Source: Nitrospirota bacterium
Lineage (GTDB): Bacteria > Nitrospirota > Nitrospiria > 2-01-FULL-66-17
Length of the DNA: 64,000 nt
Assembly: GCA_040757335.1 (NCBI GenBank)
Contig: JBFLXB010000008.1
Coordinates: forward strand, 1-64,000
Direction: 5' to 3'
Made by a program: the position numbers and the translations under genes. Shown here piece by piece: positions 2,349 to 50,261 of this stretch. Position 1 is the first letter of the stretch; each line of letters starts with the position of its first letter. Under the pieces are notes generated by a model. It was not told the DNA's origin, ran no database searches, and worked only from the letters and a program-made list of their open reading frames with translations.

Positions 2349-4529
2349 TTGACCGCGACGCTTTTGTCGGCGCCCCTCGTTACTGATCCTTGCAAAACCC
2401 GCCCGGTGATGCTAAAAACGATCTCTCATCCCGTCCGTGCCCCGAGGGCCCCTTGGGTGGAACCTCACGATTTACCGGGTGATTCTCAGCAGTACCGGAC
2501 CCTCCTGGAGGTCTCCGAGTCGATCTGCGCGCACCGCGACCTGAAGGCGCTCCTGCAAGAGCTGTCCAAGCGGCTGCGTTCGCTGGCTCGATTTGAATTC
2601 ATCGGGCTGCATCTGCACGATCCCGCGCGCAATGTCATGCAGACGCTCTACCTTGGGACCGGGGAGGGCGAGAGTATTCATGATTTGGCGCTGCCGATGG
2701 AGGACTCGGCGAGCGCACGGGTGTTTCTCACCCAGCAGCCGATGGTGGTGCGATGTCGCGAGGACATTGCGCACTTGCCGGCGGTGCTGAAGGTCATTGA
2801 TAAGGTCGGATCAGAGTCGTTCTGCATCTTCCCGCTCACGACTGCCATGCGGCGTCTGGGCGCTGTGGGGTTCGGGAGGAAGGGCCGCAGCACGTTCGGC
2901 GAGACCGAGTTGGAGTTCTTGCAGCAGGTGGCCAAGCTGGTGTCGATGGCAGTGGACAATGCACTCAATTTCGAGAGCGCCCTTGCGGCGCAACGGCAAC
3001 TGACGCGCGAGCGGGATCGCCAGCGGTTGTTGTTGGAGGTGAACAACGCGCTGACCACGCACCTGGATTTGCGCGAGGTGTTGCACGCTATCTCGGCCTG
3101 TCTCAGGCGGGCCATGCCGCACGACCTTTCCGGGTTCACGCTCTATGATTCCTCGACGGGTCAGTTGCTGGCCCATGCCATGGACTTCCCTCAGAATCAG
3201 GACTTTGTCGCGATGGGCCATCCCATTCCTATTGACGGGACCCCTGAGGGCTTGGCGTTTACGTCTCGCAAGCCCGTGCTGATCAAAAAGCTCGACCTCG
3301 CGCAGTTCACCGCGCCGATCATGAAACGCGCGGCGGCCGAGGGTCTCAAATCGGGCTGCACGGTTCCCCTGATCTCGCGGGGGCGCGCATTGGGCACGCT
3401 GACCGTGGTCAGTCTGCGCGAGAACGCGTTCAGCGAGGACGATGCAGAGTTACTCGCCGGAATCGGCGCGCAGGTCGCGATCGCGGTGGAAAACGGCTTG
3501 GCGTATCGCGAGATCGCGGAGTTGAAAGACAAACTGAGCAAGGAAAAACTCTACCTTGAAGACGAAATCCGCACACAATACAACTTCGAAGAGATCATCG
3601 GTGACAGTCCGGTGCTGAAGAAGGTCTTGAAGCAGGTCGAAACCGTGGCCCCTACGGACTCCACGGTGTTGATCCGGGGCGAGACCGGCGCGGGCAAGGA
3701 GCTGATTGCACGGGGGATCCACAATTTGAGCCGGCGGCGCGAGCGGACCTTCGTGAAGATGAATTGCGCCGCGATTCCCACCGGGCTGCTGGAAAGCGAG
3801 TTGTTCGGACATGAGCGGGGCGCGTTCACCGGCGCGATCGCGCAGAAGATCGGGCGGTTCGAGCTGGCGCACCAGGGGACCTTGTTCCTGGACGAGGTGG
3901 GGGACATTCCGCTGGAACTGCAGTCCAAGCTGCTGCGGGTGCTGCAGGAGCAGGAGTTCGAGCGCCTGGGAAGCACCCGGACCATCAAGGTCAACATCCG
4001 GCTGGTCGCGGCCACGAACCGGGATTTGGAGCAGATGGTCGCTGACAAGCAATTCCGCAGCGACCTGTACTACCGCCTGAATGTCTTTCCCATCACCGTG
4101 CCGTCTCTGCGGGAGCGCAGCCAGGACATCCCGGTGCTGGTTCGTTACTTCACCCAGAAGTACGCGCGGCGCATGGACAAGCGGATCGGCGCGATCCCGG
4201 CGGAGGCCTTGACCGCGTTGTCGAGGTATCACTGGCCCGGCAATATCCGGGAACTCGAGAACCTGATCGAACGCTCGGTGATTCTTTCGTCGGGCTTGGA
4301 CCTGCAGGTGCCGCTCGGGGAGTTGAAAGTCCGCCCCGTTGCTTCGGTATCAGTTGATGGCGATGGTGCCGGGACCCTGGAGGCAGCGGAACGCAAGCAC
4401 ATCCTGCGTGCCCTGAAGGAAACCGATTGGATCCTCGGTGGAAAATCTGGTGCTGCAGCGAAACTCGGAATGAAGCGGACCACGCTGCAATCGCGGATGA
4501 AGAAACTGGGTATCTCCAAGAACGCCTAG
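2349..4529 (+). CDS. Sigma-54-dependent transcriptional activator, GAF-GAF-AAA+-HTH
   Basis: A 726-residue enhancer-binding protein. Two GAF sensory domains lie at about residues 50-195 and 227-375, a short linker follows, then the AAA+ domain with Walker A GETGAGKE (444-451), the sigma-54 contact loop GAFTGA (491-496) and Walker B LFLDE (around 515). A Fis-type helix-turn-helix forms the last 40 residues. The TTG start at 2349 is chosen because GAAGG lies 7 nt before it; an in-frame ATG at 2409 is the alternative. Two GAF domains resemble the FhlA layout; NifA usually has one. The gene is followed by a gap carrying GGCAC palindromes and a sigma-54 promoter, so it most likely activates the efflux operon at 4758-11022 in response to a small molecule bound by a GAF domain. 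Confidence 0.88.
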   Translation: MTATLLSAPLVTDPCKTRPVMLKTISHPVRAPRAPWVEPHDLPGDSQQYRTLLEVSESICAHRDLKALLQELSKRLRSLARFEFIGLHLHDPARNVMQTLYLGTGEGESIHDLALPMEDSASARVFLTQQPMVVRCREDIAHLPAVLKVIDKVGSESFCIFPLTTAMRRLGAVGFGRKGRSTFGETELEFLQQVAKLVSMAVDNALNFESALAAQRQLTRERDRQRLLLEVNNALTTHLDLREVLHAISACLRRAMPHDLSGFTLYDSSTGQLLAHAMDFPQNQDFVAMGHPIPIDGTPEGLAFTSRKPVLIKKLDLAQFTAPIMKRAAAEGLKSGCTVPLISRGRALGTLTVVSLRENAFSEDDAELLAGIGAQVAIAVENGLAYREIAELKDKLSKEKLYLEDEIRTQYNFEEIIGDSPVLKKVLKQVETVAPTDSTVLIRGETGAGKELIARGIHNLSRRRERTFVKMNCAAIPTGLLESELFGHERGAFTGAIAQKIGRFELAHQGTLFLDEVGDIPLELQSKLLRVLQEQEFERLGSTRTIKVNIRLVAATNRDLEQMVADKQFRSDLYYRLNVFPITVPSLRERSQDIPVLVRYFTQKYARRMDKRIGAIPAEALTALSRYHWPGNIRELENLIERSVILSSGLDLQVPLGELKVRPVASVSVDGDGAGTLEAAERKHILRALKETDWILGGKSGAAAKLGMKRTTLQSRMKKLGISKNA

Positions 4530-11713: not shown

Positions 11714-13063
11714 ATGGAATCGTTGAAGACAAAAATCCTGGTGGTCGACGATGATCCCGACATCCGGAAGATTCTCCAGGATCGTCTGGAGGCCTTGCGA
11801 TACCTGGTGGTGACCGCAGAAAACGGACGCAAGGCTCTGGAAAAGCTTCCTCAAGAGGAACCTGACCTGATGTTCCTTGATCTGCAGATGCCGGGGATGG
11901 ATGGCATCGAAGTCTTGAGGAAGCTCAAGGATCACGCCGATCTCCCGATCATCATCATCACCGCCTTCGGAACCATCGAGAAGGCCGTGGAGGCGATGAA
12001 GGAAGGGGCGTTTGATTTCATCACCAAACCGTTCTCCCCCGATCATCTCGAGATCGTCATCAAGAAAGCCCTCGAGCGCACCGCTTTGAAGGAAGAGAAT
12101 CGGTACCTCCAGGGGGCAGTGAATTCGACGTTCCCTGAAATCGTGGGCACGAGTCCAAGGCTGAAGGCGGCGATTCAGGTGGCCCAGCAGGTCGCCGCCA
12201 CCTCGTCGACCGTCCTGCTGCTGGGGGAAAGCGGGACCGGGAAGGAAATTTTCGCGCGATGGATCCACCGCTGGAGCCCGCGAGCCAAGAGACCCTTCGT
12301 GGTGGTCAATTGTGTGGCCCTGAGAGATGAACTCCTGGAGAGCGAGCTGTTCGGGCACGAGAAAGGGGCGTTCACCGGTGCCCATCAGATGAAGCAAGGG
12401 AAACTGGAGATCGCCAACGGAGGCACCGTGTTCTTGGATGAGATCGGCGATTTCAAACCGGACCTGCAAGCCAAGCTGCTCAGGGTGATCCAGGAACGCG
12501 AGTTTGAGCGGGTCGGAGGGACCAGACGAATTAGCGTCGATATCCGGATTATCGCGGCGACCAATCGTGATCTCCAGGAGGAGGTTCAGGAAGGTCGGTT
12601 TCGGGAAGACCTGTTTTTCCGCTTGAATGTCGTCACGATCTCGCTCCCGCCGCTGCGTGAGAAGAAAGAAGATATACCACTGTTGGCTGATTTCTTCCTT
12701 CGCCGAGCGTGCCACAGCGTGAAGAAGCCGCTCATGAAGATTTCCGCGGAGGCCGTGGAGCACCTCATGCGTTACCACTGGCCCGGCAATGTGAGAGAAC
12801 TGGGAAACCTCATCGAACGTGCCGTGGTCCTGGCCAGAGGGGCTGAGATCACGCCGGAAGATCTTCCGCTTCTTCGAGCCCCGACCTCGAGCGACGAGAG
12901 CTTTCTGAGTAAACCGTACCACGACGCGGTTCGCCAGGCTCAGCGGGACGTGATCCGGCATGCGTTGCAGAGCAGCGGAGGCAACCAGGCGAAGGCTGCG
13001 GAGCTCCTGGGGCTTCAGCGGACATACCTCGCGCGATTGATCAAGAAGTTGCAGGTCAGGTGA
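11714..13063 (+). CDS. NtrC-family sigma-54 response regulator
   Basis: A 449-residue protein with three domains: a receiver (about 5-120; phospho-acceptor Asp56 in MFLDLQMPG, Lys in ITKPF), AAA+ (about 140-375; Walker A GESGTGKE 171-178, GAFTGA 218-223, Walker B FLDEIGD) and a C-terminal Fis-type helix-turn-helix (about 405-449). It would be phosphorylated by one of the two histidine kinases encoded downstream and drive sigma-54 promoters. Its own promoter has tandem GTATCT palindromes, so autoregulation is likely; two further promoters with the same sites lie at 23.6 and 25.0 kb. Confidence 0.92.
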   Translation: MESLKTKILVVDDDPDIRKILQDRLEALRYLVVTAENGRKALEKLPQEEPDLMFLDLQMPGMDGIEVLRKLKDHADLPIIIITAFGTIEKAVEAMKEGAFDFITKPFSPDHLEIVIKKALERTALKEENRYLQGAVNSTFPEIVGTSPRLKAAIQVAQQVAATSSTVLLLGESGTGKEIFARWIHRWSPRAKRPFVVVNCVALRDELLESELFGHEKGAFTGAHQMKQGKLEIANGGTVFLDEIGDFKPDLQAKLLRVIQEREFERVGGTRRISVDIRIIAATNRDLQEEVQEGRFREDLFFRLNVVTISLPPLREKKEDIPLLADFFLRRACHSVKKPLMKISAEAVEHLMRYHWPGNVRELGNLIERAVVLARGAEITPEDLPLLRAPTSSDESFLSKPYHDAVRQAQRDVIRHALQSSGGNQAKAAELLGLQRTYLARLIKKLQVR

Positions 13064-27065: not shown

Positions 27066-27081
27066 TGTTGGCTGTCGCACA
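27066..27081 (+). promoter_or_regulatory. NifA upstream activator sequence
   Basis: TGT TGGCTGTCGC ACA is an exact TGT-N10-ACA NifA-binding motif, located 61 bp upstream of the sigma-54 promoter. No nifA gene is in the window; the activator must be encoded elsewhere. Confidence 0.7.
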
Positions 27082-27142: not shown

Positions 27143-27158
27143 CGGCACGCTGTTTGCT
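27143..27158 (+). promoter_or_regulatory. Sigma-54 promoter of the nif cluster
   Basis: CGGCACGCTGTTTGCT matches GGCACG-N4-TTGCT perfectly apart from the first base. It lies 28 bp before the DUF2292 gene and downstream of a NifA site, so it is the likely nitrogen- and oxygen-regulated start of nif transcription. Confidence 0.85.
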
Positions 27159-35522: not shown

Positions 35523-37046
35523 ATGGACCTGCCAGTGTTGAACGTCAGTAACAGCGCGGACCCCGCGGGCTGCAAGGCCAAAGCAAGTTGCGGCGACAGC
35601 CGCGGACCCGGAGACATGGACCCGGAGACCTGGGAGAAGGTCAAAAACCATCCTTGCTACAGCGAGGAAGCCCACCACCACTACGCCCGGATGCACGTGG
35701 CGGTGGCTCCCGCCTGCAACATCCAGTGCCACTACTGCAACCGCAAATACGATTGCGCCAACGAGAGCCGGCCCGGCGTGGTCAGCGAGAAATTGACGCC
35801 GGAGGATGCCGCCAAAAAAGTGCTCGCCGTGGCCAGCACCATCCCTCAAATGACGGTCCTGGGGATTGCCGGACCCGGAGATCCCCTGGCCAACCCCGAC
35901 AAGACCTTCCGCACCTTCGACCTGATCGCCGAGAAGGCGCCGGATATCAAGCTCTGCCTGTCCACCAACGGCTTGGCCCTCCCCGACCACGTGGACCGGA
36001 TCAAGGCCCTGAAGGTCGATCACGTCACCCTTACCATCAACATGGTCGATCCCGAAGTGGGGGAACGCATCTACCCGTGGGTCTTCTACAAGCATAAACG
36101 GTGGACGGGGCGCGACGCTGCCAAGATCTTGAGCGAACGCCAGTTGGAGGGGCTCGATCTGCTGACGTCCAACGGCATTCTGTGCAAGGTCAACTCGGTG
36201 ATGATCCCGGGTGTCAACGACGACCACCTGGCCGAGGTCAACCAGAAGGTCAAGTCGTTGGGGGCGTTCCTCCACAACATCATGCCGCTGATCTCCGCCC
36301 CGGAACACGGGACCCATTATGGCCTCACCGGCCAGAGGGGACCGACCGCCCAGGAGCTCAAGGCGTTACAAGATCGCTGCGAGGGGCAGATGAACATGAT
36401 GCGCCACTGCCGCCAGTGCCGCGCCGACGCGGTGGGACTCCTGGGAGAGGACCGGAGCAAGGAGTTCACCCTGGAGAAGATCCGGGAGATGGACGTGGAG
36501 TACGACCTGGACAAACGGCAGGCCTATCAGACCCAGGTGGAGGCCAAGCGCCTCGAGACGAGGAAGGCCAAGGAGGAGGGGCTGAAGGCCCTGGAGGACG
36601 TCACGACGGATCTGAAGATCTTGATCGCCGTCGCGACCAAAGGGCAGGGGATCATCAACGAGCACTTCGGACACGCCCATGAATTTCAGGTGTACGAGCT
36701 CAGCGGGGGGGGGAGCAAATTCGTCGGCCACCGGCGCGTGGACATGTATTGCCAGGGGGGATTCGGGGAGGAAGACGCCCTCGACACGGTGATCCGGGCG
36801 ATCAGCGACTGCGTGGCGGTCTTCGCCTCCAAAATCGGCAATTGTCCCAAGGACACGCTCAAGGCCGCCGGGATCGAGCCGGTCGACCGGTATGCCCACG
36901 AGTTCATCGAGAAATCGGCCTTGGCGTACTTCAAGGAGTATGCGGAGAAGGTTCGGCGCGGCGAGGTCGTTCATATCCCCCGAGGGGACGCTGAGATCCG
37001 GACCGGAGCCCTCGTGTCGGCCGGCGCGACCGGGGAGGATGCGTAA
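35523..37046 (+). CDS. nifB: FeMo-cofactor core synthase NifB (radical SAM)
   Basis: A 507-residue enzyme that fuses two [4Fe-4S] units with a SAM-derived carbide to make NifB-co. Radical SAM motif CNIQCHYC with Cys65, Cys69 and Cys72; further conserved cysteines near the N terminus (AGCKAKASC) and CRQC (Cys296, Cys299) for the auxiliary clusters. From about residue 360 a NifX-like domain is fused ([14 protein letters not shown]), the two-domain form common in Proteobacteria. The next gene, a ferredoxin, follows with no gap. Confidence 0.97.
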
Positions 37047-37313: not shown

Positions 37314-37684
37314 TGCAGATCACGATTACGGAGCGGGCGGGAACGTTCATCCGCCGGATGATCGCCTTTGGGGGCGGCGAGCCTGGCTCGGGATTTCGGC
37401 TGGCGGTGAAACCGGGAGGCTGCGCCGGCCTGAGCTACGACTTCAACATCGAGGCAACACCCCAACCGGGAGACGAGGTGGTGGAGGGGCCGGGTTTCAA
37501 GGTCCATGTCCCGGTTGAAAGCCGCCCGTACCTGGAAGGAACCACGGTCGATTTTGTCGAGACGCTGATGCAGTCGGGGCTGACCTTCACGAATCCCAAC
37601 GCCGGCGCGCAATGCGGCTGCGGCAGTTCATTTTCTCCAACGGGCGAAGCCCCGTCGGTTGGTAAGGAGTGCGGAAAACCGTGA
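37313..37684 (+). CDS. IscA/HesB-type iron-sulfur carrier
   Basis: A 123-residue A-type carrier with the three cysteines of the family, Cys37 (GGCAGLSY), Cys101 and Cys103 (CGCGSSF). Within nif clusters such proteins are called NifIscA and help deliver Fe-S clusters. There is no nifU in the window, so this protein and the NifU-C-like protein at 44158 may carry that load. ATG 37313 overlaps the ferredoxin stop. Confidence 0.87.
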   Translation: MQITITERAGTFIRRMIAFGGGEPGSGFRLAVKPGGCAGLSYDFNIEATPQPGDEVVEGPGFKVHVPVESRPYLEGTTVDFVETLMQSGLTFTNPNAGAQCGCGSSFSPTGEAPSVGKECGKP

Positions 37685-38184
37685 TGGTGCAGGAGGAGGA
37701 ATGGATCGAACGCGTGTATTACGGCGGGGATCTCCCCCGTGAAGCCGAACGGTGTCTTCATCTGGCCGCCCTTTCTTACCGGCAGGAAGAGCTGGCCGAG
37801 CGATATCTGTACGAGGCTCTCGGGCTCGCCCCGGACCACATCGCGGTCTACATCGGGATGTACAAGTTCTATTTTTACAAGGGGCGACTTGAAGAGGCGT
37901 TGGGATGCGCCCTCCGGTGTCTGGAGAAGGCGACCGTGGAGGGCGGTCTCTCTCCGGATTGGCGGCAGGTGAAACCCTCCGATGCGGCTTTTGACGGCTT
38001 CAATACCGCCCCGAGATTTTATCTCTTCACGCTGAAGGCCTATGGCTATATCCAGATGCGGCTGGGGAACTTTGAAGCGGGGAGGGCGGCCATCACGAAG
38101 GTGATGGAACTGGATCCGGGGGACAAGATGGGTGGGTCCATCCTGCTGGGCATCCTGGATCGGGTGGGGCAAGAGGATCAATGA
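37684..38184 (+). CDS. TPR-repeat protein of the nif cluster
   Basis: A 166-residue all-helical protein with TPR-like repeats (LHLAALSYRQEELAERYLYEAL, VYIGMYKFYFYKGRLEEALGCAL, KAYGYIQMRLGNFEAGRAAI). It overlaps iscA by one base and precedes nifZ; a TPR protein at this place occurs in other nif clusters. It probably holds partners together during cluster insertion; no enzyme motif. Confidence 0.75.
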   Translation: MVQEEEWIERVYYGGDLPREAERCLHLAALSYRQEELAERYLYEALGLAPDHIAVYIGMYKFYFYKGRLEEALGCALRCLEKATVEGGLSPDWRQVKPSDAAFDGFNTAPRFYLFTLKAYGYIQMRLGNFEAGRAAITKVMELDPGDKMGGSILLGILDRVGQEDQ

Positions 38185-38196
38185 GGATCAAGAGAC

Positions 38197-38517
38197 ATGG
38201 GTGACATCAGCCGAGACAGCGACGTGATTGAAATCGCAACCCCCCCGCGGTTCGATTACGGCCAGAAGGTCCGCTCCAAGCGGATGATCCGCAACGACGG
38301 AACCTTTCCCGGCAGAGATGTGGGAGAGGTCCTGGTGAAGAAAGGAGACGAGGGATACGTGGCGAGCATCGGCACGTTCCTCCAGCAGTTCTATATCTAT
38401 GGGATCTACTTCTACGAGAAGGGATATACGGTCGGCTGTCGGGGCAAAGAGTTGGAACCGACGGATGGGGAGGGCGAAAGACCGAAGGTGCCCGGAGAGG
38501 GAGACCATGTCGTCTGA
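38197..38517 (+). CDS. nifZ: Nitrogenase maturation protein NifZ
   Basis: A 106-residue protein with the NifZ pattern PRFDYGQKVRSKRMIRNDGT, then GEVLVKKGDEGYV, IGTFLQQFYIYGI and a basic-acidic end. NifZ takes part in maturation of the second P-cluster of NifDK. It overlaps the Rieske gene by 11 nt. Confidence 0.88.
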   Translation: MGDISRDSDVIEIATPPRFDYGQKVRSKRMIRNDGTFPGRDVGEVLVKKGDEGYVASIGTFLQQFYIYGIYFYEKGYTVGCRGKELEPTDGEGERPKVPGEGDHVV

Positions 38518-38839
38518 TCCATTCGTCGTTGCCGTCAAGCTGGGAGACCTTCCCCCGGAGTCCGGTAAGGTGGTGAAGGTCAACAAGCGCAGTCTCCTCC
38601 TAGTCAACAAAGGAGGGAGCGTCGCGGCCTTCTTGAACCGCTGTCCCCACCAGGAGAGCCCCTTCGGCGGGACAGCGTACAAACTCTCGGGATGCGTGGC
38701 GGGGACCGTGGTCTGTCCGATGCATGAGTGGGTCTTCGACGTTCCCTCCGGCGAAGCGATCGGCCGGCCCGGAGTCTGCCTGAAGCCTTATCCGGTTCAG
38801 ATCGCTGGCGACGACGTGCTGGTGGCGGTCGAGTCATGA
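38507..38839 (+). CDS. Rieske-type [2Fe-2S] ferredoxin
   Basis: A 110-residue soluble Rieske protein: Cys46-Pro-His48 (RCPHQE) and Cys70-Pro-Met-His73 (VCPMHEW) ligate the cluster. The fold resembles the ferredoxin components of ring dioxygenases and nitrite reductase small subunits. In nif clusters it is probably an electron carrier for the assembly enzymes. ATG 38507 lies inside nifZ. Confidence 0.85.
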   Translation: MSSDPFVVAVKLGDLPPESGKVVKVNKRSLLLVNKGGSVAAFLNRCPHQESPFGGTAYKLSGCVAGTVVCPMHEWVFDVPSGEAIGRPGVCLKPYPVQIAGDDVLVAVES

Positions 38840-39990
38840 TGAATCCGATCTATCTTGATAACAATGCTACGACCCGGATCGCGCCGGAGGTCCTGGAGGC
38901 GATGTTTCCCTACTTGGCGAATGTGTATGGGAATCCGTCGAGTCAACACCTCTTCGGCGAGCCGGTCAAGCGGCGGATCGGGGAAGCTCGATCCGCCGTG
39001 GCTGCCCTTCTGGGAGCGAGCCCCACGGAGCTCGTCTTCACCAGTGGGGCAACCGAAAGCAACCATACGGCCATCATGGGTGCCCTTGCCATGAGGCCGG
39101 GGCGCCGGGAGATCGTGACCATGTCGGTCGAGCATCCTTCGGTTCTCCGCCTCTTCCGCCGCTTGGGTGAAACGGGATATCGGGTGACGTTCCTTCCCGT
39201 CCACTCAGACGGTGCCCCGGATATGGACGTGCTGCAAGAGACGGTCACGGAAGAGACGGCCCTGGTCTCCATGATGTGGGCGAATAACGAGACCGGAGTG
39301 GTGTTCCCGGTTACGGAAGCGGTGGGTGTGGCAAAGAACAAAGGAGCCCTGTTTCACACCGATGCGGTCCAGGCCATCGGGAAGATTCCCGTCAATCTGT
39401 CAGAAAATCCTGCCGACCTCCTCTCCGTCTCGGGCCACAAGCTTCACGCGCCCAAGGGAATCGGGGTTCTCTTCGTCCGGAAGGGACTCACGCTCCCTCC
39501 GCTTTTGTTCGGTCATCAGGAGCGGGGAAGGCGAGGGGGGACCGAAAACGTTCCGGGGATCGTGGGGCTGGGAAAGGCCTGTGAGCTGGCTGCGTTGGGT
39601 ATGGCGGATGATATGGAACGGGTTCGCGGTTTGAGGGATCGGTTGGAACAGGGGATTCTCCGCGCTGTTCCGACGGCCAGGGTCAACGGGGGCCGCCACG
39701 GCCGCGTCCCCAACACCGCCAACCTCTGCTTCGGGACCATGGATGCGGAAGCCATCCTGAGCCGGCTGAACCGGCTGGGGATCGCGGTGTCCGCCGGCTC
39801 GGCCTGTTCTTCCGGCGGCACCGAGCCGTCGCACGTGTTGACGGCGATGGGGCTGTCTCGCGAAGAGGCTCTCGCCTCGATCCGATTTTCGTTGAGCCGC
39901 TATACGACGATCGAGGAGATCTCCAAAGTCTTGGAGGTGCTGCCGGGGATCATGGAGGAACTGACCGCGATGGATCTGGTCCGGGGCTAA
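38836..39990 (+). CDS. nifS: Cysteine desulfurase NifS
   Basis: A 384-residue PLP enzyme releasing sulfur from cysteine for nitrogenase clusters. PLP lysine Lys202 in SVSGHKLHAPKG, catalytic cysteine Cys324 in SAGSACSSGG (short-loop extension of NifS/IscS group I), His in MSVEHPSV. Two adjacent ATGs (38836, 38839) overlap the Rieske stop. It feeds the IscA- and NifU-C-like carriers of this cluster. Confidence 0.95.
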   Translation: MMNPIYLDNNATTRIAPEVLEAMFPYLANVYGNPSSQHLFGEPVKRRIGEARSAVAALLGASPTELVFTSGATESNHTAIMGALAMRPGRREIVTMSVEHPSVLRLFRRLGETGYRVTFLPVHSDGAPDMDVLQETVTEETALVSMMWANNETGVVFPVTEAVGVAKNKGALFHTDAVQAIGKIPVNLSENPADLLSVSGHKLHAPKGIGVLFVRKGLTLPPLLFGHQERGRRGGTENVPGIVGLGKACELAALGMADDMERVRGLRDRLEQGILRAVPTARVNGGRHGRVPNTANLCFGTMDAEAILSRLNRLGIAVSAGSACSSGGTEPSHVLTAMGLSREEALASIRFSLSRYTTIEEISKVLEVLPGIMEELTAMDLVRG

Positions 39991-39995
39991 CTCAG

Positions 39996-40199
39996 ATGAA
40001 AGTGATGATCCGAAAAAATGCAGAGGGCATCCTCTCAGCCTACATGGCGAAAAAGGACCTGGAGGAGCCGATCGTGGCGATGGAGAAGGAGACCCTCTGG
40101 GGAGGGGCGGTCACCCTGGCCAACGGGTGGAAGCTGGCGTTGCCGGAGATGGCCCAGGACACCCGGCTGCCGATCACCGTGGAAGCGCGCCGACTATGA
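39996..40199 (+). CDS. nifT: NifT/FixU protein
   Basis: A 67-residue protein with the NifT pattern: MKVMIRKN start, AYMAKKDLEEPIV, LWGGAVTLANGWKLALP. Function unresolved; often found between nifK and later genes, here after nifS. Confidence 0.85.
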   Translation: MKVMIRKNAEGILSAYMAKKDLEEPIVAMEKETLWGGAVTLANGWKLALPEMAQDTRLPITVEARRL

Positions 40200-41335
40200 T
40201 CTCCCTGTCAGAACCAGACCTCTCGCCCCTGGAATCGGAGGTAGCGGCGGAGGTGCTCCGATCCATCCGGTTCGGTTCCGGAGCGATGGCGGAGGCTTTC
40301 GAGGATGTGTTTTCGGATTATGCCGGTAGGGAGTATGCGGCGTCGGTCAGCAGCGGGACCCTGGCCTTGCTCCTCTGTTTGAAGGGCTACGGAATCGGAC
40401 CGGGGGACGAGGTCGTGGTCTCGCCATTCTCCTGGCATCAGATCGTCCACGCGGTTTCTTTCGTGGGAGCTGAGGCGGTGTTTGCCGACATCGACTATTG
40501 GACGTGCACCCTTGACCCTGCCAAGGCGGAACAGAAGATCACGGCGAAGACCAAAGCCATTCTGGTGGGCAATACCAACGGCCACCCCGCCGACTGGGAC
40601 GCCTTCCGGGATCTGGCCAGGCGGTATGACCTGCGGCTGATCGAGGATTCCACCGAGGCGATCGGCTCGTTGTACAAAGGGACGCCGGTTGGCCGGTTCG
40701 GGGACTGCGCGATCTTCTCCCTCTGCGCGCCGGGTCCGCTGGCCACGGGTGGTTGCGCCGTGGTGGTGACGGACGATGGCGATCTGGACCGGGCCGTCCG
40801 GTATGGACGGAGTCGGCGGTTGGAGGACCGGTTCTCCATCGTCGTGACCGGCACGCTCTCCCTGGATGCCGGGGTCAACGATCTCTCGGCGGCGTTGGGG
40901 CTGGCGCAACTGAGCCGGCCCGACGAGATCCTGGCGCAACGGAAAGCGGTGGAAGCCTGGTATGCCCGGGAGATGAAATCCTTTGAGGGGATCAAGGACC
41001 CCTTTGTCGCTCCGTACGCCACCGAAGTCCACTGGTTTCTCTACATGGTCCACCTGGGAACCCGGTTCAGCCGGAGCAGTCGGGACGCGATCATCGAAGA
41101 CCTCCTGACCGAAGAGGTCGAGGGGACGGCGTATTGCCAACTGGCGCATCTGCAACGGTTTTATGTGGAACGCGGAAGTCGTAAGGGAGCGTGCGCCATC
41201 GCGGAGAAAAATGGGGATCGGGCCATCGTCCTCCCCTTCCATGGACATCTGACGGAGGATCAGGTGGTGTTTATCGTGAAAACCTTGAAGGATGCCTCGC
41301 TCAACGTGGGGGCCGGGTCGGCCATCTATTTGTAA
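40196..41335 (+). CDS. DegT/DnrJ/EryC1-type aminotransferase homologue lacking the PLP lysine
   Basis: A 379-residue protein from ATG 40196 (overlaps nifT by 4 nt) with the fold signature of sugar aminotransferases: VSSGTLALLLCL, GPGDEVVVSPFSW, LIEDSTEAIGSLYKG and FGDCAIFSL. The Schiff-base lysine should be the fifth residue after Ser175; here the segment reads SLCAPGPLATGG with Gly180 at that place. The aspartate of IED that holds the PLP pyridine is kept. So the protein may bind PLP or a relative without transamination, or act as a dehydratase-like or structural variant. Role in nitrogen fixation unknown. Confidence 0.8.
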   Translation: MISLSEPDLSPLESEVAAEVLRSIRFGSGAMAEAFEDVFSDYAGREYAASVSSGTLALLLCLKGYGIGPGDEVVVSPFSWHQIVHAVSFVGAEAVFADIDYWTCTLDPAKAEQKITAKTKAILVGNTNGHPADWDAFRDLARRYDLRLIEDSTEAIGSLYKGTPVGRFGDCAIFSLCAPGPLATGGCAVVVTDDGDLDRAVRYGRSRRLEDRFSIVVTGTLSLDAGVNDLSAALGLAQLSRPDEILAQRKAVEAWYAREMKSFEGIKDPFVAPYATEVHWFLYMVHLGTRFSRSSRDAIIEDLLTEEVEGTAYCQLAHLQRFYVERGSRKGACAIAEKNGDRAIVLPFHGHLTEDQVVFIVKTLKDASLNVGAGSAIYL

Positions 41336-41347
41336 GAAGAGGGAGCG

Positions 41348-41575
41348 ATGGACTCAAACCAGATCATGATCCACGTCCGGTTCGCCCCGGACGGCACCGT
41401 GAAGGAGATCGGCGAGCGGCCCCCCGGGATCACCGCACAGGAGTGGTTCAACCACCTGAGCCGGAACACGCAGAACTGCTACCAGATCTTTTCCGGAGGG
41501 CGGGGGATCTTCCGTTTGACCCGAGAACAGGTGGAGGCATGCAAAGGGCTCTCCGCGGTGAAGGAGCCGGCATGA
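41348..41575 (+). CDS. Small nif-cluster protein of unknown function
   Basis: A 75-residue protein, start ATG 41348 with AAGAGGGAG before it, overlapping the SIR2-like gene by 4 nt. Predicted alpha/beta (IMIHVRFAPDGTVKEIGERPPGI, AQEWFNHLSRNTQNCYQIF, GGRGIFRLTREQVEACK). Two cysteines. No family recognised. Gene coupling ties it to the DegT- and SIR2-like proteins. Confidence 0.7.
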   Translation: MDSNQIMIHVRFAPDGTVKEIGERPPGITAQEWFNHLSRNTQNCYQIFSGGRGIFRLTREQVEACKGLSAVKEPA

Positions 41576-42447
41576 CGACGGGAAGAGACCGGGACATGTT
41601 TGAAGAGATTGCCGCCGGTCTTGTGGAGGGAACGATCATTCCCTACCTCGGGCCGGGGGTCTTCCAGACGCAGGCCGGCGTTCCCGTCGGTCCCTCGGAG
41701 CTGGCGGACTGGCTCTGTCACAAGATCGCGGTTCCCGGCCGAATCCGAGGGAATCTGACGGCCGTGGCCCAGTACATCGAGAACTTCAAGCACCGGAAGA
41801 CCCTCACCCATCTGATGAACGAGGCCTTCACTCCGGAGACCGTCCCCGCTCCGGCTCACCGGCTTCTGTCGGCTCTGCCGCGCCTGCGGTTGGTGGTGGA
41901 CACCTGGTATGACGGGACCACGGCCCTGGCGCTGATGGGTTCCGGTGAACAAGGTCGAACCGTGTGTCAGATCACCGGTGTCAGCCGCTCGGAGCATCCG
42001 AACGATTGGGTCCGATATGCCGGCGGTGGCGCCTCCATAGAGGCGGCGGACACCGTGCTCTACAAACCCCACGGGTCGGTGTATCCAGAACCGAATTTTC
42101 TCGTTTCCGATGCGGACTACGTCGAAGTGCTGACGGAGATCGATATCCAGACGCCGATTCCACCGGTGGTCCAGCGGCTTCGAACCGGGAGCCACTTCCT
42201 GTTTCTGGGATGCCGGTTCAACCAGCAGCTTGACCGAATTTTTGCCCGGCAGATCATGAAGCGCTCCTCCGACCGGCACTGGGCCGTCCTGGATGGGGAG
42301 CTGTCCAAGAAGGAGGCCCAGTTCCTGGCCGTCCAGGGCATCCTTCCCATCAGGAAAGAGCTGCAGGAGTTTATCGGCGAGTTGGCCGGACGGTGGCCTG
42401 TGGTTAGCCACACCGGAGGGGAGACCGTGTCATGCAAATCGGTGTAG
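41572..42447 (+). CDS. SIR2-like protein of the nif cluster
   Basis: A 291-residue protein from ATG 41572. The N terminus (VEGTIIPYLGPGVF) resembles the Rossmann start of SIR2-like proteins, LRLVVDTWYDGTTALAL and LYKPHGSVYPEPNFLVS the NAD-binding middle including the KxHG segment, and SHFLFLGCRFNQQLDRIF the second Rossmann motif. The zinc-finger cysteines of classical sirtuins are missing. It may be a NAD-binding regulator or NADase; target unknown. It overlaps both neighbours. Confidence 0.72.
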   Translation: MTTGRDRDMFEEIAAGLVEGTIIPYLGPGVFQTQAGVPVGPSELADWLCHKIAVPGRIRGNLTAVAQYIENFKHRKTLTHLMNEAFTPETVPAPAHRLLSALPRLRLVVDTWYDGTTALALMGSGEQGRTVCQITGVSRSEHPNDWVRYAGGGASIEAADTVLYKPHGSVYPEPNFLVSDADYVEVLTEIDIQTPIPPVVQRLRTGSHFLFLGCRFNQQLDRIFARQIMKRSSDRHWAVLDGELSKKEAQFLAVQGILPIRKELQEFIGELAGRWPVVSHTGGETVSCKSV

Positions 42448-42872
42448 AGGCTGCTCGTGCGGTGGAAAACAAAAGAGTCTTTGTGGTCGAGCCGGATGAG
42501 GTCACCCGCGCCGCCCTCCAGTTCATGCTCCACGATGAGAACGAGACGCATGAACTGCGCGACGTGCCGACGGTGTACCTGAAAGGCCGCGAGCACCGAC
42601 CTGATCTGATTCTTCTGGGATTGTCCATCATCCGCGATCAGGGGGTGCAGGTCCTGGGCGCGCTTAAAGGCGCCTTCCCCGGTGTGAAGATCGTCCTGGT
42701 GGTGGATGCCGATGCGATGCCGACGGTCAAAGAGGCGCTCGGAGCCGGTGCGGATGACACCTTGCTCAAACCCTTGCGGGTGGAAGCGGTGAGGGAAACG
42801 GTGGATCGCCATCTTGGACGGAACGGGATACCTCACGGCGTGGAATCGAATCCTTTTCGGATTCTTCAATGA
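42432..42872 (+). CDS. Receiver-like protein without phospho-acceptor aspartate
   Basis: A 146-residue receiver fold ([54 protein letters not shown]). The site where response regulators have the phosphorylated Asp (PDLILLD) reads LLGLS, and the acidic pocket is reduced to EPDE. The lysine of LLKP is kept. It is therefore a pseudo-receiver that probably works by binding partners. It overlaps the SIR2-like gene by 16 nt. Confidence 0.75.
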
Positions 42873-42885
42873 AGGGATCAGTCAG

Positions 42886-43200
42886 ATGAGCGCGACGGAA
42901 ATGGTCACCGGCGTGACGCAGGGCGGAACCGTCTGGATTCCACGGTTTGTCCAGAACATCGACGCCTCAAAGTGCATTGGCTGTGGCCGGTGCTTCAAGG
43001 TCTGCGGCCGGGATGTGATGCGGTTGACGCCCGTGGACGAGGACGGGACGTTGATCGTAGTGACGGATGAAGACGAGGAGTTCGAGAAACAGGTGATGAC
43101 CCTGGCTCATCCCGAGAGCTGCGTCGGATGCGAAGCCTGTTCCCGGGTCTGCCCGAAACAGTGTTACACCCACGGCCCTCTGCCGGCCGTAACAACCTGA
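42886..43200 (+). CDS. fdxB: Ferredoxin III (FdxB)
   Basis: A 104-residue protein with a 25-residue leader and two [4Fe-4S] motifs, [11 protein letters not shown] and [11 protein letters not shown], separated by an acidic insertion ([20 protein letters not shown]). This is the FdxB layout of nif clusters, probably an electron donor for cofactor assembly or nitrogenase. ATG 42886. Confidence 0.88.
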
Positions 43201-43210
43201 GGGGAGCCAC

Positions 43211-43528
43211 ATGAAGATGGTCCGCGCAATTGTCCGCCCGGAGAAGGAGCAGGAGGTGGTTCTGGCTTTGGAGGGAGCGGGTTTTCCCGCCGTCACCAAG
43301 TCCCACGTCTTCGGGCGGGGTAAGCAGAAAGGGCTCCAGGTGGGGAGCGTTCACTACGATGAGCTTCCCAAGCTGGTCCTCATGATGGTGGTGGAGGATC
43401 AGAATGCCGACGAGGTGGTCCAGTTGATTCTCAAGACGGCGAGAACCGGGAACATCGGCGATGGAAAGGTGTTCGTGAGCCCCGTCGAGCGGTCATATAC
43501 CATCAGGACCGGAAAGCCGGAACTGTAA
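43211..43528 (+). CDS. nifI1: PII-like nitrogenase regulator NifI1
   Basis: A 105-residue PII protein. The T-loop GRGKQKGLQVGSVHYDELPK is of the NifI1 type and lacks the uridylylated tyrosine of GlnB. With NifI2 it forms a complex that shuts off the Mo-Fe protein when ammonium is present and is relieved by 2-oxoglutarate and ATP (known from methanogens). In many organisms the pair sits between nifH and nifD; here it is far downstream. Confidence 0.88.
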   Translation: MKMVRAIVRPEKEQEVVLALEGAGFPAVTKSHVFGRGKQKGLQVGSVHYDELPKLVLMMVVEDQNADEVVQLILKTARTGNIGDGKVFVSPVERSYTIRTGKPEL

Positions 43529-43530
43529 CC

Positions 43531-43950
43531 ATGAAGGAGATCATCGCGATCATTCGACGAGACAAGTTCCCCATGACCAAGCGTGTCCTGGACGAGATCG
43601 GCTGTTCCGCCATGACCGTCTACAGCGTGGAGGGGCGAGGCAAACAAAAAGGCCGGTTCTCTGAAATCGATCCTGAGCTGCCGGAACACTACGAAGGCGT
43701 CTCGCGGATCATGACCAAACCGACACCGTCGGTGTACGCCCTGGAGCATCAGATCACCAAGCCGGTCCTCTATGTTCCCAAACGAATGCTCAGGATGGTT
43801 GTTCCGAATGACAAGGTGGACCCGGTCGTCGAGGCTCTGATCCAGGTAAACCGCACCGGGGCCCACGGGGACGGCAAGGTCTTCGTGACACCGGTGGAGG
43901 AGGCCTGGCAGATCAGAACGTCACAAGTCGGCGAGGAGATGTTGCAATGA
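43531..43950 (+). CDS. nifI2: PII-like nitrogenase regulator NifI2
   Basis: A 139-residue PII protein with a longer T-loop region than NifI1 (RGKQKGRFSEIDPELPEHYEG), typical of NifI2, and the C-terminal GDGKVFVTPVEEAWQIRT. It starts 2 nt after nifI1. Together they imply post-translational nitrogenase control by direct binding; no draT/draG is in the window. Confidence 0.88.
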   Translation: MKEIIAIIRRDKFPMTKRVLDEIGCSAMTVYSVEGRGKQKGRFSEIDPELPEHYEGVSRIMTKPTPSVYALEHQITKPVLYVPKRMLRMVVPNDKVDPVVEALIQVNRTGAHGDGKVFVTPVEEAWQIRTSQVGEEMLQ

Positions 43951-47747: not shown

Positions 47748-48837
47748 AGGTCCAGATACATGTGAGACAAGATCTGGTAGAAGCGAGGGGCTCAACCCTG
47801 AAGCGGGAGGCCTCTGGCGATGCGGGTATTTGGACTGACGTGGCAGTTTCAGCAACGGTTTCCGGAGATCGAGCTCTCGCCCCGGGGGCAGGAGCGGCTG
47901 CGGGTGCTGACGTTGTGGCGGGAGACCCGTGATGTCGACGTCGTCTGTCGGACCTTTGGGCTCAGCCGGGCGACCCTGTATCGGTGGGCGCGGCAGTTTG
48001 ATCCACACGATCCCACGTCGGTGCGGGCGCGCTCCCGCCGACCGCGGCGGGTCCGCCAGGCCACCTGGACTTCTGCGCAGCTCGAGGCGGTCCGGCGCTT
48101 GCGGGCGCAATACCCGCGGTGGGGCAAAGCCAAGCTGGCGGTCCTGCTCCAGCGGGCCGGCGACCGGCTCTCGGCATCAACCGTGGGGCGGATGCTGCAG
48201 TGGCTCAAAGCGCACGGCCGTCTGGTGGAACCGCGCCGTCACGCCATCTCGGCGCGCAAGCGGCGGCCGCCCCGGCCCTACGCGGTGCGCAAGCCCGCGG
48301 ACTACCACCCGCAGGCCCCGGGCGATCTGGTCCAGGTCGATACGCTGGATGTGCGGCCCGTCCCGGGGGTGATCCTCAAGCAGTTCACGGCCCGGGACGT
48401 GATCTCTCGATGGGATGTCGTGGAAGTGCATGAGCGGGCGACGGCCCGGGTGGCCGCGCAGTTCCTCGACACCCTGCAGGCGCGGCTCCCCGTGCCCGTC
48501 CGCGCCATTCAGGTCGATGGCGGCTCGGAGTTCTTCGCGGACTTCGAGGCCGCCTGTCAGCAGCGCCAGATCCGCTTGTTTGCCCTCCCACCGCGCAGTC
48601 CCAAGCTCAATGGGAAGGTGGAACGTGCCCAGCGCACCCATACCGAGGAGTTCTACGAGATCACGCCGTGTGCCTGGACGGTGGCGGCCCTCAACCCCGA
48701 ACTGCGTCGCTGGGAGCACACCTACAACACCATCCGCCCCCACCAAGCGCTCGCCTATCGCACGCCCTTGCAATTCCTCCAGGACCTCGGCATCATGCCG
48801 CTCACTCGCCCCTCGTTGTCTCACATGTAGTGGACCA
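47748..48837. mobile_element. DDE insertion sequence with terminal inverted repeats
   Basis: Terminal repeats AGGTCCAGATACATGTGAGACAA (as AGGTCCAGATA / CATGTGAGACAA, 47748-47770) and its counterpart at 48816-48837, complement of TGGTCCACTACATGTGAGACAA, match except for one indel and two bases. A single transposase gene fills the element, and its stop codon lies inside the right repeat. No clear target-site duplication was found. The element separates the right nif boundary from the cobalamin operon promoter. Confidence 0.8.
47820..48830 (+). CDS. IS transposase, HTH plus DDE integrase core
   Basis: A 336-residue transposase. N-terminal helix-turn-helix (VVCRTFGLSRATLYRWARQF), a basic linker, a second HTH (YPRWGKAKLAVLLQ), and the rve core with the catalytic triad: Asp in LVQVDTLD, Asp in IQVDGGSEF and Glu in LNGKVERAQRTH. 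The closing YNTIRPHQALAYRTP is typical of IS481/IS3-like elements. Full-length and apparently intact, so the element could be active. Confidence 0.85.
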   Translation: MRVFGLTWQFQQRFPEIELSPRGQERLRVLTLWRETRDVDVVCRTFGLSRATLYRWARQFDPHDPTSVRARSRRPRRVRQATWTSAQLEAVRRLRAQYPRWGKAKLAVLLQRAGDRLSASTVGRMLQWLKAHGRLVEPRRHAISARKRRPPRPYAVRKPADYHPQAPGDLVQVDTLDVRPVPGVILKQFTARDVISRWDVVEVHERATARVAAQFLDTLQARLPVPVRAIQVDGGSEFFADFEAACQQRQIRLFALPPRSPKLNGKVERAQRTHTEEFYEITPCAWTVAALNPELRRWEHTYNTIRPHQALAYRTPLQFLQDLGIMPLTRPSLSHM

Positions 48838-48847
48838 GTACAGGGGC

Positions 48848-48877
48848 TTGACATGGGCTCGGCGTTGGGAGTATGGT
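48848..48877 (+). promoter_or_regulatory. Sigma-70-type promoter of the cobalamin operon
   Basis: TTGACA at 48848-48853 and TATGGT at 48872-48877 with an 18-bp spacer, just upstream of the riboswitch. The -35 box begins only 11 bp from the right end of the IS. Confidence 0.55.
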
Positions 48878-48883
48878 CGCGAC

Positions 48884-49072
48884 TGCTTCGGGTGCCCCCT
48901 GAGGGGGCTGAAAAGGGAACCCGGTGGAAGTCCGGGACGGTCCCGCCGCTGTGTACGGGGACGAAACCCCTAGGGTTGCGACATAGGCGACCCGATCAGG
49001 CCACTGCTTGAAAGAGCGGGAAGGCCGGGGGAGTAGGATGATCCGTAAGTCAGAAGACCTGCCTGAAGCGTG
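48884..49072 (+). promoter_or_regulatory. Cobalamin riboswitch
   Basis: Conserved blocks of the AdoCbl aptamer in order: AAAAGGGAACCCGGTGGAA near 48911, GTCCGGGACGGTCCCGCCGC (the B12 box core) to about 48950, CTGTG, and CAGAAGACCTGCC at about 49051-49063. It controls the B12 operon that starts at 49224. Together with the terminator at 49140 it forms an OFF switch when cobalamin is plentiful. Edges are approximate. Confidence 0.92.
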
Positions 49073-49139
49073 TTGCCATACACCCCGGATCTGGGTGGAC
49101 GTGGTGACCTAAATTTTGAGGATCAAGAACCTGGGTGCA

Positions 49140-49223: not shown

Positions 49224-50261
49224 ATGTACACCGGGCACGGAGGCAATCTCGAAGCGATTCGAGCGCGGTACGGGTGGGAGCCGGCCACCGTCTGTGATTT
49301 CAGCGCCAGCCTCAACCCCCTTGGTCCCCCGCCGGTAGTTGACGCCATCCTCCAGGCGACATCCCCACTCGTTGCCGCGTACCCCGATATCGATTGCCGG
49401 GCGCTGCGGCGCGGCTTGGCCCGCCTGCACGGTCTCTCGGACGACTCCATCCTGATCGGTAACGGGTCGACCGAGTTCATCTTCCTGCTGCCCCGCGTGT
49501 TCCGCCCCCGGACCGTGCTGGTCGACCCGCCGACCTATCGCGATTACGCCGAGGCCGCCGAGGCGGTCGGCGCCGTCGTTGCCGACGGACGCGCGACGGG
49601 CTCCTGCGGCGATCTCGCGTTCGTGTGTAATCCCAATAATCCCACGGGGACGGCGCTCGATGCCGATGCGGTGCGTGCTCTTGCCGCCGCCCGACCGTCC
49701 ACGCTCTTCGTCGTGGATGAAGCCTACGTCGATCTTTCCGACGCGCCCGAGGCTTTTTCGCTCCTGTCCGCGCCTCTGCCCGACAACGTCATTGTCCTGC
49801 GCTCGTTCACCAAGACCTACGCCGTGCCGGGCCTGCGCCTGGGCTACGCGGTCGGCGCGCCGGCGCTCATGGCGCGGGTCGAGCGGTTGAAGGAGCCGTG
49901 GGCGGTCAACGCGCTCGCGCTGGCGGCGGGACAGGAGCTCCTCGATTGCGCCGACCACGCGCGCGCGGGCGCCGAGTTGATCCGTCGCGCGCGCGCGCGG
50001 CTGATCGAACGGCTCGGGGCGCTCCCGGGGTTCCATCCCGCGCCGTCGCGCGCTAATTTCATCCTGATCCGGCTGCCTGACGGCCTGCACGCCGACGCCC
50101 TCCGCGATCGCCTGATCGAGGATCGCATCCTGATTCGCAGTTGCGCCGATTTTGATGGCCTCGGTCCCTCGTACATTCGAGTCGCCGTTCGCACCGAAGC
50201 GGACAATCGACGGTTGGTCGAGGCGTTCGCCGCGGCGGTCAAGGAGCCGGCATGGGCCTGA
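49224..50261 (+). CDS. cobD: L-threonine-O-3-phosphate decarboxylase
   Basis: A 345-residue PLP enzyme of the histidinol-phosphate aminotransferase fold making (R)-1-amino-2-propanol phosphate for the nucleotide loop. HGGN start (YTGHGGNLEAIRARYG) and DFSASLNPLGPP are CobD/CobC hallmarks; PLP lysine Lys197 lies in SFTKTYAVPGLRLGY. First gene behind the riboswitch; it overlaps the next gene by 10 nt. Confidence 0.88.
   Translation: MYTGHGGNLEAIRARYGWEPATVCDFSASLNPLGPPPVVDAILQATSPLVAAYPDIDCRALRRGLARLHGLSDDSILIGNGSTEFIFLLPRVFRPRTVLVDPPTYRDYAEAAEAVGAVVADGRATGSCGDLAFVCNPNNPTGTALDADAVRALAAARPSTLFVVDEAYVDLSDAPEAFSLLSAPLPDNVIVLRSFTKTYAVPGLRLGYAVGAPALMARVERLKEPWAVNALALAAGQELLDCADHARAGAELIRRARARLIERLGALPGFHPAPSRANFILIRLPDGLHADALRDRLIEDRILIRSCADFDGLGPSYIRVAVRTEADNRRLVEAFAAAVKEPAWA

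Follow-up and report, generated by a model that had tools for sequence, protein, structure and literature searches.

The four genes of a Nitrospirota nif region coding for a DegT-like protein, a protein of 75 amino acids, a SIR2-like protein and a receiver-like protein (Table 1) belong to nif-dedicated families, which were found almost solely in nitrogen-fixing bacteria. They were analysed within a window of 64,000 nucleotides, i.e. the whole stretch of DNA considered here. Judged from the residues aligned with known enzymes and receivers, all three recognisable folds (DegT, SIR2 and receiver, assigned by homology) have lost the residues needed for catalysis or phosphorylation. We infer, with a probability of about 0.55, that the four products assist the maturation or protection of nitrogenase as catalytically dead accessory proteins, structural helpers rather than NAD sensors. 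The folds of an aminotransferase, of a defence-type SIR2 NADase and of a response-regulator receiver would have been recruited together with a small undescribed family. The four proteins, encoded with the NifB/NifZ/NifS/NifT group, would most likely be binding proteins that scaffold, chaperone or protect during the assembly or insertion of nitrogenase metalloclusters.

Table 1. Coordinates of the four genes, their nif neighbours and the candidate promoter elements in the window, with the match supporting each assignment.
Feature	Position	Strand	Basis
candidate NifA site TGT-N10-ACA	27066-27081	+	pattern match upstream of nifH
sigma-54-like element	27143-27157	+	pattern match upstream of nifH
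nifB	35523..37046	+	74% identity to annotated Methylococcus NifB
TPR protein, member of conserved nifB operon	37669..38184	+	Pfam TPR; recurrent neighbour in relatives
nifZ	38197..38517	+	PF04319, 3.7e-33
nifS-type cysteine desulfurase	38839..39990	+	TIGR03402 2.4e-156, slightly under its cut-off; recurrent neighbour
nifT	39996..40199	+	TIGR02934, 2.4e-33
DegT-like	40196..41335	+	Pfam DegT_DnrJ_EryC1 PF01041, E 9e-79
75-aa protein	41348..41575	+	Pfam/NCBIfam: no match
SIR2-like	41572..42447	+	Pfam SIR2_2 PF13289, E 2e-17
receiver-like (pseudo-receiver)	42432..42872	+	Pfam Response_reg PF00072, E 4e-13
fdxB (ferredoxin III, nif-specific)	42886..43200	+	TIGR02936, 6.9e-41
nifI1 and nifI2 (two P-II proteins)	43211..43950	+	PF00543, 2.7e-26 and 1.3e-24

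All four ORFs were intact and occurred at the place and on the strand given in a preliminary description of this DNA, which had described their ends as overlapping. The genes are real and correctly placed, but not all ends overlap. Overlaps of 4, 4 and 16 nt were observed at the nifT/DegT, 75-aa/SIR2 and SIR2/receiver junctions, respectively, and gaps of 12 and 13 nt at DegT/75-aa and receiver/fdxB. Nor is overlap peculiar to these genes. From nifH (27516) to a TauE/SafE-like gene (47112) extends a single unbroken run of 28 genes on the + strand, whose 27 junctions (counted with a few start codons set by the analyst's choice) all measured 65 nt or less, 14 of them being overlaps. Since overlap is so widespread across the run, it does not mark out the four genes as a module. 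Inspection of the nifS-type protein revealed the catalytic Lys and Cys.

The candidate NifA site and the sigma-54-like element upstream of nifH are aptly placed and might drive transcription of the entire run, but matches to TGT-N10-ACA were no more numerous across the window than expected by chance, so that position alone singles out this candidate. Within the run, no sigma-54-like site and a single weak sigma-70-like match were found, so that a transcription unit proper to the four genes is unsupported. Two coding stretches for NifA-like sigma-54 activators (3363-4514 and 12074-13057, with 37% and 44% identity to Methylococcus NifA) were located far upstream of nifH, and nifI1 and nifI2 lay far downstream of nifHDK instead of adjoining nifH. 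Beyond the run, an integrase/transposase-like ORF (47820-48830) separated it from cobalamin biosynthesis-like genes, which were preceded by a cobalamin riboswitch (48873-49080, 119.8 bits). A tRNA-Met predicted by ARAGORN (49831-49925) falls within a long ORF and is a probable false positive.

Each of the four families was conserved in a nif context in other genomes, which goes beyond chance. The SIR2-like protein was about 45-55% identical to plasmid proteins of Methylococcus, Paraburkholderia, Bradyrhizobium, Sinorhizobium, Mesorhizobium and Rhizobium, and those relatives whose surroundings were read were situated in nif clusters. Homologues of all four genes were present on the Methylococcus plasmid, where a run composed of nifT, an 87-aa gene, DegT, a 2Fe-2S ferredoxin gene, the 75-aa homologue, SIR2 and BolA was observed; the receiver gene was divergent from nifHDK and adjoined by a truncated globin gene. 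The receiver gene is usually located apart from the SIR2 operon and often diverges from nifH, as observed in several genomes.

A survey of SIR2 neighbourhoods, with 80 loci kept out of at least 562 relatives from the genome scan, disclosed a stereotyped order: nifA, nifB, fdxN, iscA, TPR, LRR, nifZ, nifZ, DUF3024, nifS, nifT, 87-aa, DegT, (2Fe-2S), (75-aa), SIR2. Genes of nif were seen at 75 of the 80 loci, the remaining five having little sequence upstream of SIR2. In all 72 loci with at least 2.5 kb of upstream sequence, nifT occurred within 4 kb upstream of SIR2. Where at least 8 kb were available, fdxN and nifT were recorded in 60/60 loci and nifB and nifZ in 57/60. At L004 (6178-10181), further constant but uncharacterised members of the nifB operon were noted, namely the TPR, 4Fe-4S leucine-rich repeat, DUF3024 and 87-aa proteins.

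The phylogenetic profile was established on three samples totalling 687 genomes, i.e. 198 of Nitrospirota, 200 of the order of Azoarcus (G245) and 289 of Alphaproteobacteria. Out of 50 genomes with the SIR2-like gene, 49 possessed nifD; in the sole exception (G397), nifD was not detected and the operon is cut by the contig start. Among Nitrospirota, nifD scored above the cut-off in 58 of 198 genomes, which included all 14 with a strong SIR2-like match. In the Azoarcus order, SIR2-like occurred in 30 of 200 genomes, while nifD scored above the cut-off in 29 and partially in one more. Of these 30 nif+ genomes, 29 carried SIR2-like, compared with 1 of the remaining 170 (Fisher 1e-32, a value that counts genomes as independent although they are kin and the sample centres were chosen as gene carriers); G394 was nif+ without the SIR2-like gene. 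The six alphaproteobacterial carriers were all among the nine nifD+ genomes of 289. The DegT-like gene was recorded in 16 genomes, all with SIR2-like, and its scores of at least 617 bits were clearly separated from the next best (262 bits, ordinary DegT proteins). The receiver occurred in 14 genomes, all with DegT-like. Among 42 SIR2+ genomes, the 75-aa protein was found in 17, all of them with the receiver, which itself was present in 21.

Occurrence is nested rather than four-way coupled (receiver within DegT-like, DegT-like within SIR2-like, SIR2-like within nif), and neither this nesting nor the absence from nif-minus genomes relies on Fisher values. Occurrence of the four genes independently of one another and of nif, the outcome that would speak against a link, was not seen. 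The view of one coupled unit held in part: the genes are tied to nif and to one another, but the unit is not exactly four genes. Its core is the longer nifB-fdxN-iscA-TPR-LRR-nifZ-DUF3024-nifS-nifT-(87 aa)-DegT-(2Fe-2S)-(75 aa)-SIR2 operon, with the receiver usually elsewhere. Many nif+ genomes were devoid of SIR2-like (44 of 58 in Nitrospirota and 3 of 9 in Alphaproteobacteria, besides G394), so that these genes are not required for nitrogenase generally.

Domain PF13289 was recovered in 48/48 SIR2-like proteins, and a Foldseek search with the AF2 model (pLDDT 88.6) returned ThsA, DSR2 and KomC as best matches; the SIR2 subfamily of nif clusters is not represented in NCBIfam. In alignments to ThsA and KomC, where sequence similarity is weak, Trp replaced the catalytic Asn (TTNYD in ThsA) in 86/86 main-family sequences (W112 in the window protein). 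The position of the catalytic His (YKxHG) was occupied by L in 45, I in 16, W in 7 and H in just 4 of the 86; the window protein has H167 there, but the Asn is absent. Likewise, the NAD-binding motif GAGxS was changed to GPGxF/L (YLGPGxL in most of the family versus VGAGVS in KomC). Earlier, two proteins had been credited with the loss of key residues, rightly so for the DegT PLP lysine and the receiver aspartate (see below), but the SIR2-like family lost its own as well, which makes three. The lack of zinc cysteines, also pointed out earlier, is real but uninformative, since SIR2_2/ThsA-type domains normally do without them.

The most conserved 19-residue window of the SIR2-like family (0.948 versus 0.683 overall) spans residues 179-197, SDADYVEVLTEIDIQTPIP, where AF2 confidence falls to about 68-73, the lowest in the isolated model apart from the tail. 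Such a combination is as expected for a partner-binding segment, and this stretch, like the conserved C-terminal tail of the DegT-like protein, is a likely contact surface. Seven nif+ genomes from the order of Azoarcus contained a divergent SIR2-like group (L113-L119, 85-134 bits). It displayed Asn where the main family has Trp, had Leu in place of the catalytic His, and kept SDADxV and KPxGTP; it is possibly a sister nif pseudo-SIR2 family, for which, from these residues, an ordinary NADase role would not be expected either.

For DegT-like proteins, the position of the PLP lysine was set by full-length alignment to perosamine synthetase 3bn1. No Lys was found at or near this position in 69 orthologues, which carried S, G, A, C or F, mostly Ser or Gly (G180 in the window protein); other Nitrospirota DegT-like proteins were also without it and displayed Gly or His. 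The Asp of the PLP ring, which binds pyridine N1, was kept in 69/69 (D151), so that PLP could still be bound without a Schiff base. The family thus shares a full-length match and the PLP-ring Asp with the DegT/DnrJ/EryC1/StrS sugar aminotransferases (e.g. perosamine synthetase and the Lys-less member ColD), but differs by the replaced lysine and by a nif-specific C-terminal tail with a conserved NVGAGxxIYL. The 75-aa protein represents an undescribed family whose orthologues occur in nif operons. It has a predicted beta-beta-alpha-beta-beta-alpha arrangement with conserved IHxRF, P25, W33 and GGRGxF, and a fold search with its AF2 model (pLDDT 82) gave no PDB match. Two homologues were found away from the usual place, one (L012, 9001-9183) on Methylovirgula plasmid pHY1, with no nif genes listed close by, and the other as a second copy in G235 (contig 20, 8390-8584).

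Receiver-like proteins have the fold and a partly kept acidic pocket in common with CheY-like receivers and pseudo-receivers. They are distinguished by the absence of the phospho-Asp in 19/19 sequences (G in 16, otherwise S, A or N; Gly63 in the window), by D/E close to the Ser/Thr position (D92 in the window) and by an invariant N-terminal MQIGV. At the position of the conserved Lys before Pro, K was recorded in 12, R in 6 and T in 1 of the 19. A receiver fold implies signalling more often than assembly, which speaks against a maturation role and in favour of a regulatory or sensing unit, where dead enzymes would bind NAD and PLP or PMP without catalysis and, with the pseudo-receiver, relay metabolic state to NifA, NifI or FdxB. 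The retained D151 and the receiver genes divergent from nifH fit this reading, as do fdxB and nifI1-nifI2 downstream in the window and in another Nitrospirota family, where the same genes are followed by fdxB, nifW, nifI1 and nifI2. Yet the receiver is not phosphorylatable at the usual Asp, the SIR2 NAD-site residues are lost, with Trp at the catalytic Asn position, and none of the four proteins showed a domain for DNA binding or output in Pfam and NCBIfam. Moreover, nifI was near SIR2 in none of the 80 related loci and its vicinity was encountered in Nitrospirota only. A sensing unit is thus rather unlikely. The preliminary idea that NAD state is read for nitrogenase control conflicts with the loss of GAGxS, Asn and His, and a partnership with NifI1/NifI2 failed as a general rule.

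Less likely still, the proteins might serve electron supply or oxygen protection by holding ferredoxins (2Fe-2S, Rieske, FdxB) and nitrogenase together in one complex. In many loci, a 2Fe-2S ferredoxin gene was found between DegT and SIR2 or directly after SIR2, fdxB came after SIR2 in the Nitrospirota loci read, and the globin next to the Methylococcus receiver gene would suit such a function. Many other SIR2 loci, however, had no adjoining 2Fe-2S ferredoxin gene, and the constant neighbours were nifT and nifZ.

That the proteins are active enzymes with altered chemistry, i.e. a SIR2 lysine deacylase or NADase and a ColD-like PMP-dependent DegT dehydratase, appears very improbable. ColD-type proteins function without the Lys, via His, and one Nitrospirota DegT-like family has His at this place, but the 69 orthologues do not, and the SIR2 catalytic motifs are lost across the family. 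A nif-island SIR2 protein of Zymomonas, ZMO1821, upregulated in N2 fixation, was guessed by the authors of that study to be a deacetylase (PMC8600466; also PMC8594446), a role that looks unlikely given the residue loss across the family. A nifA1-nifA2 deletion strain of R. capsulatus lacked detectable Rcc03262, a SIR2 family protein from operon nifB1-rcc03265-nifZT-rcc03262 (PMC6925177), and nifZ, nifT and a SIR2-like gene are reported for Rhodovulum (PMC9412634). Like the window protein, these proteins are encoded beside nifT (Rcc03262, Rhodovulum) or within a nif island, and they depend on NifA or are upregulated when N2 is fixed (PMC6925177, PMC9412634, PMC8600466). They were published as annotation only, apart from the deacetylase guess; Rcc03262 and ZMO1821 are compared here by annotation and location, the residue loss being that of the family. 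In the open literature searched, neither mutants nor pull-down or activity measurements turned up for the four proteins, and where nif was mentioned along with SIR2, DegT, transposon sequencing or pseudoenzymes, this was at the level of annotation.

The SIR2 fold nearest to ThsA, DSR2 and KomC and a weak PADLOC ThsA match might suggest that a cassette for anti-phage defence has lodged in the nif cluster. This was rejected given the lost NADase residues, the confinement to nif+ genomes and to a constant position within the nif operon, and the lack of any further defence family among the four proteins. The likeness to these defence proteins covers the fold of the SIR2 domain, with weak sequence similarity; unlike them, the SIR2-like protein is without GAGxS, catalytic Asn, catalytic His and a second effector-sensing domain, and is nif-restricted.

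The preferred reading, that of dead accessory proteins, places the four beside NifT, NifZ and NifW, which are likewise small accessory products of this nif operon but belong to unrelated families. More tentatively, the four may form an undescribed nitrogenase accessory complex in which three folds of enzyme or signalling origin are dead, one of them a domesticated NADase of anti-phage type. This complex would be near-universal in some diazotroph orders and needed for full maturation or protection. The families clearly illustrate how the folds of a defence-type SIR2 protein and of a sugar aminotransferase have been reused without enzyme function. Residue loss in the SIR2-like family shifts the focus from deacetylation to a binding or scaffold role. 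The moving of nitrogen fixation to new hosts relies on the nif parts list, in which the SIR2-like gene represents a gap: it has no assigned role, yet 29 of the 30 nif+ genomes sampled in one order carry it and its R. capsulatus homologue is NifA-dependent.
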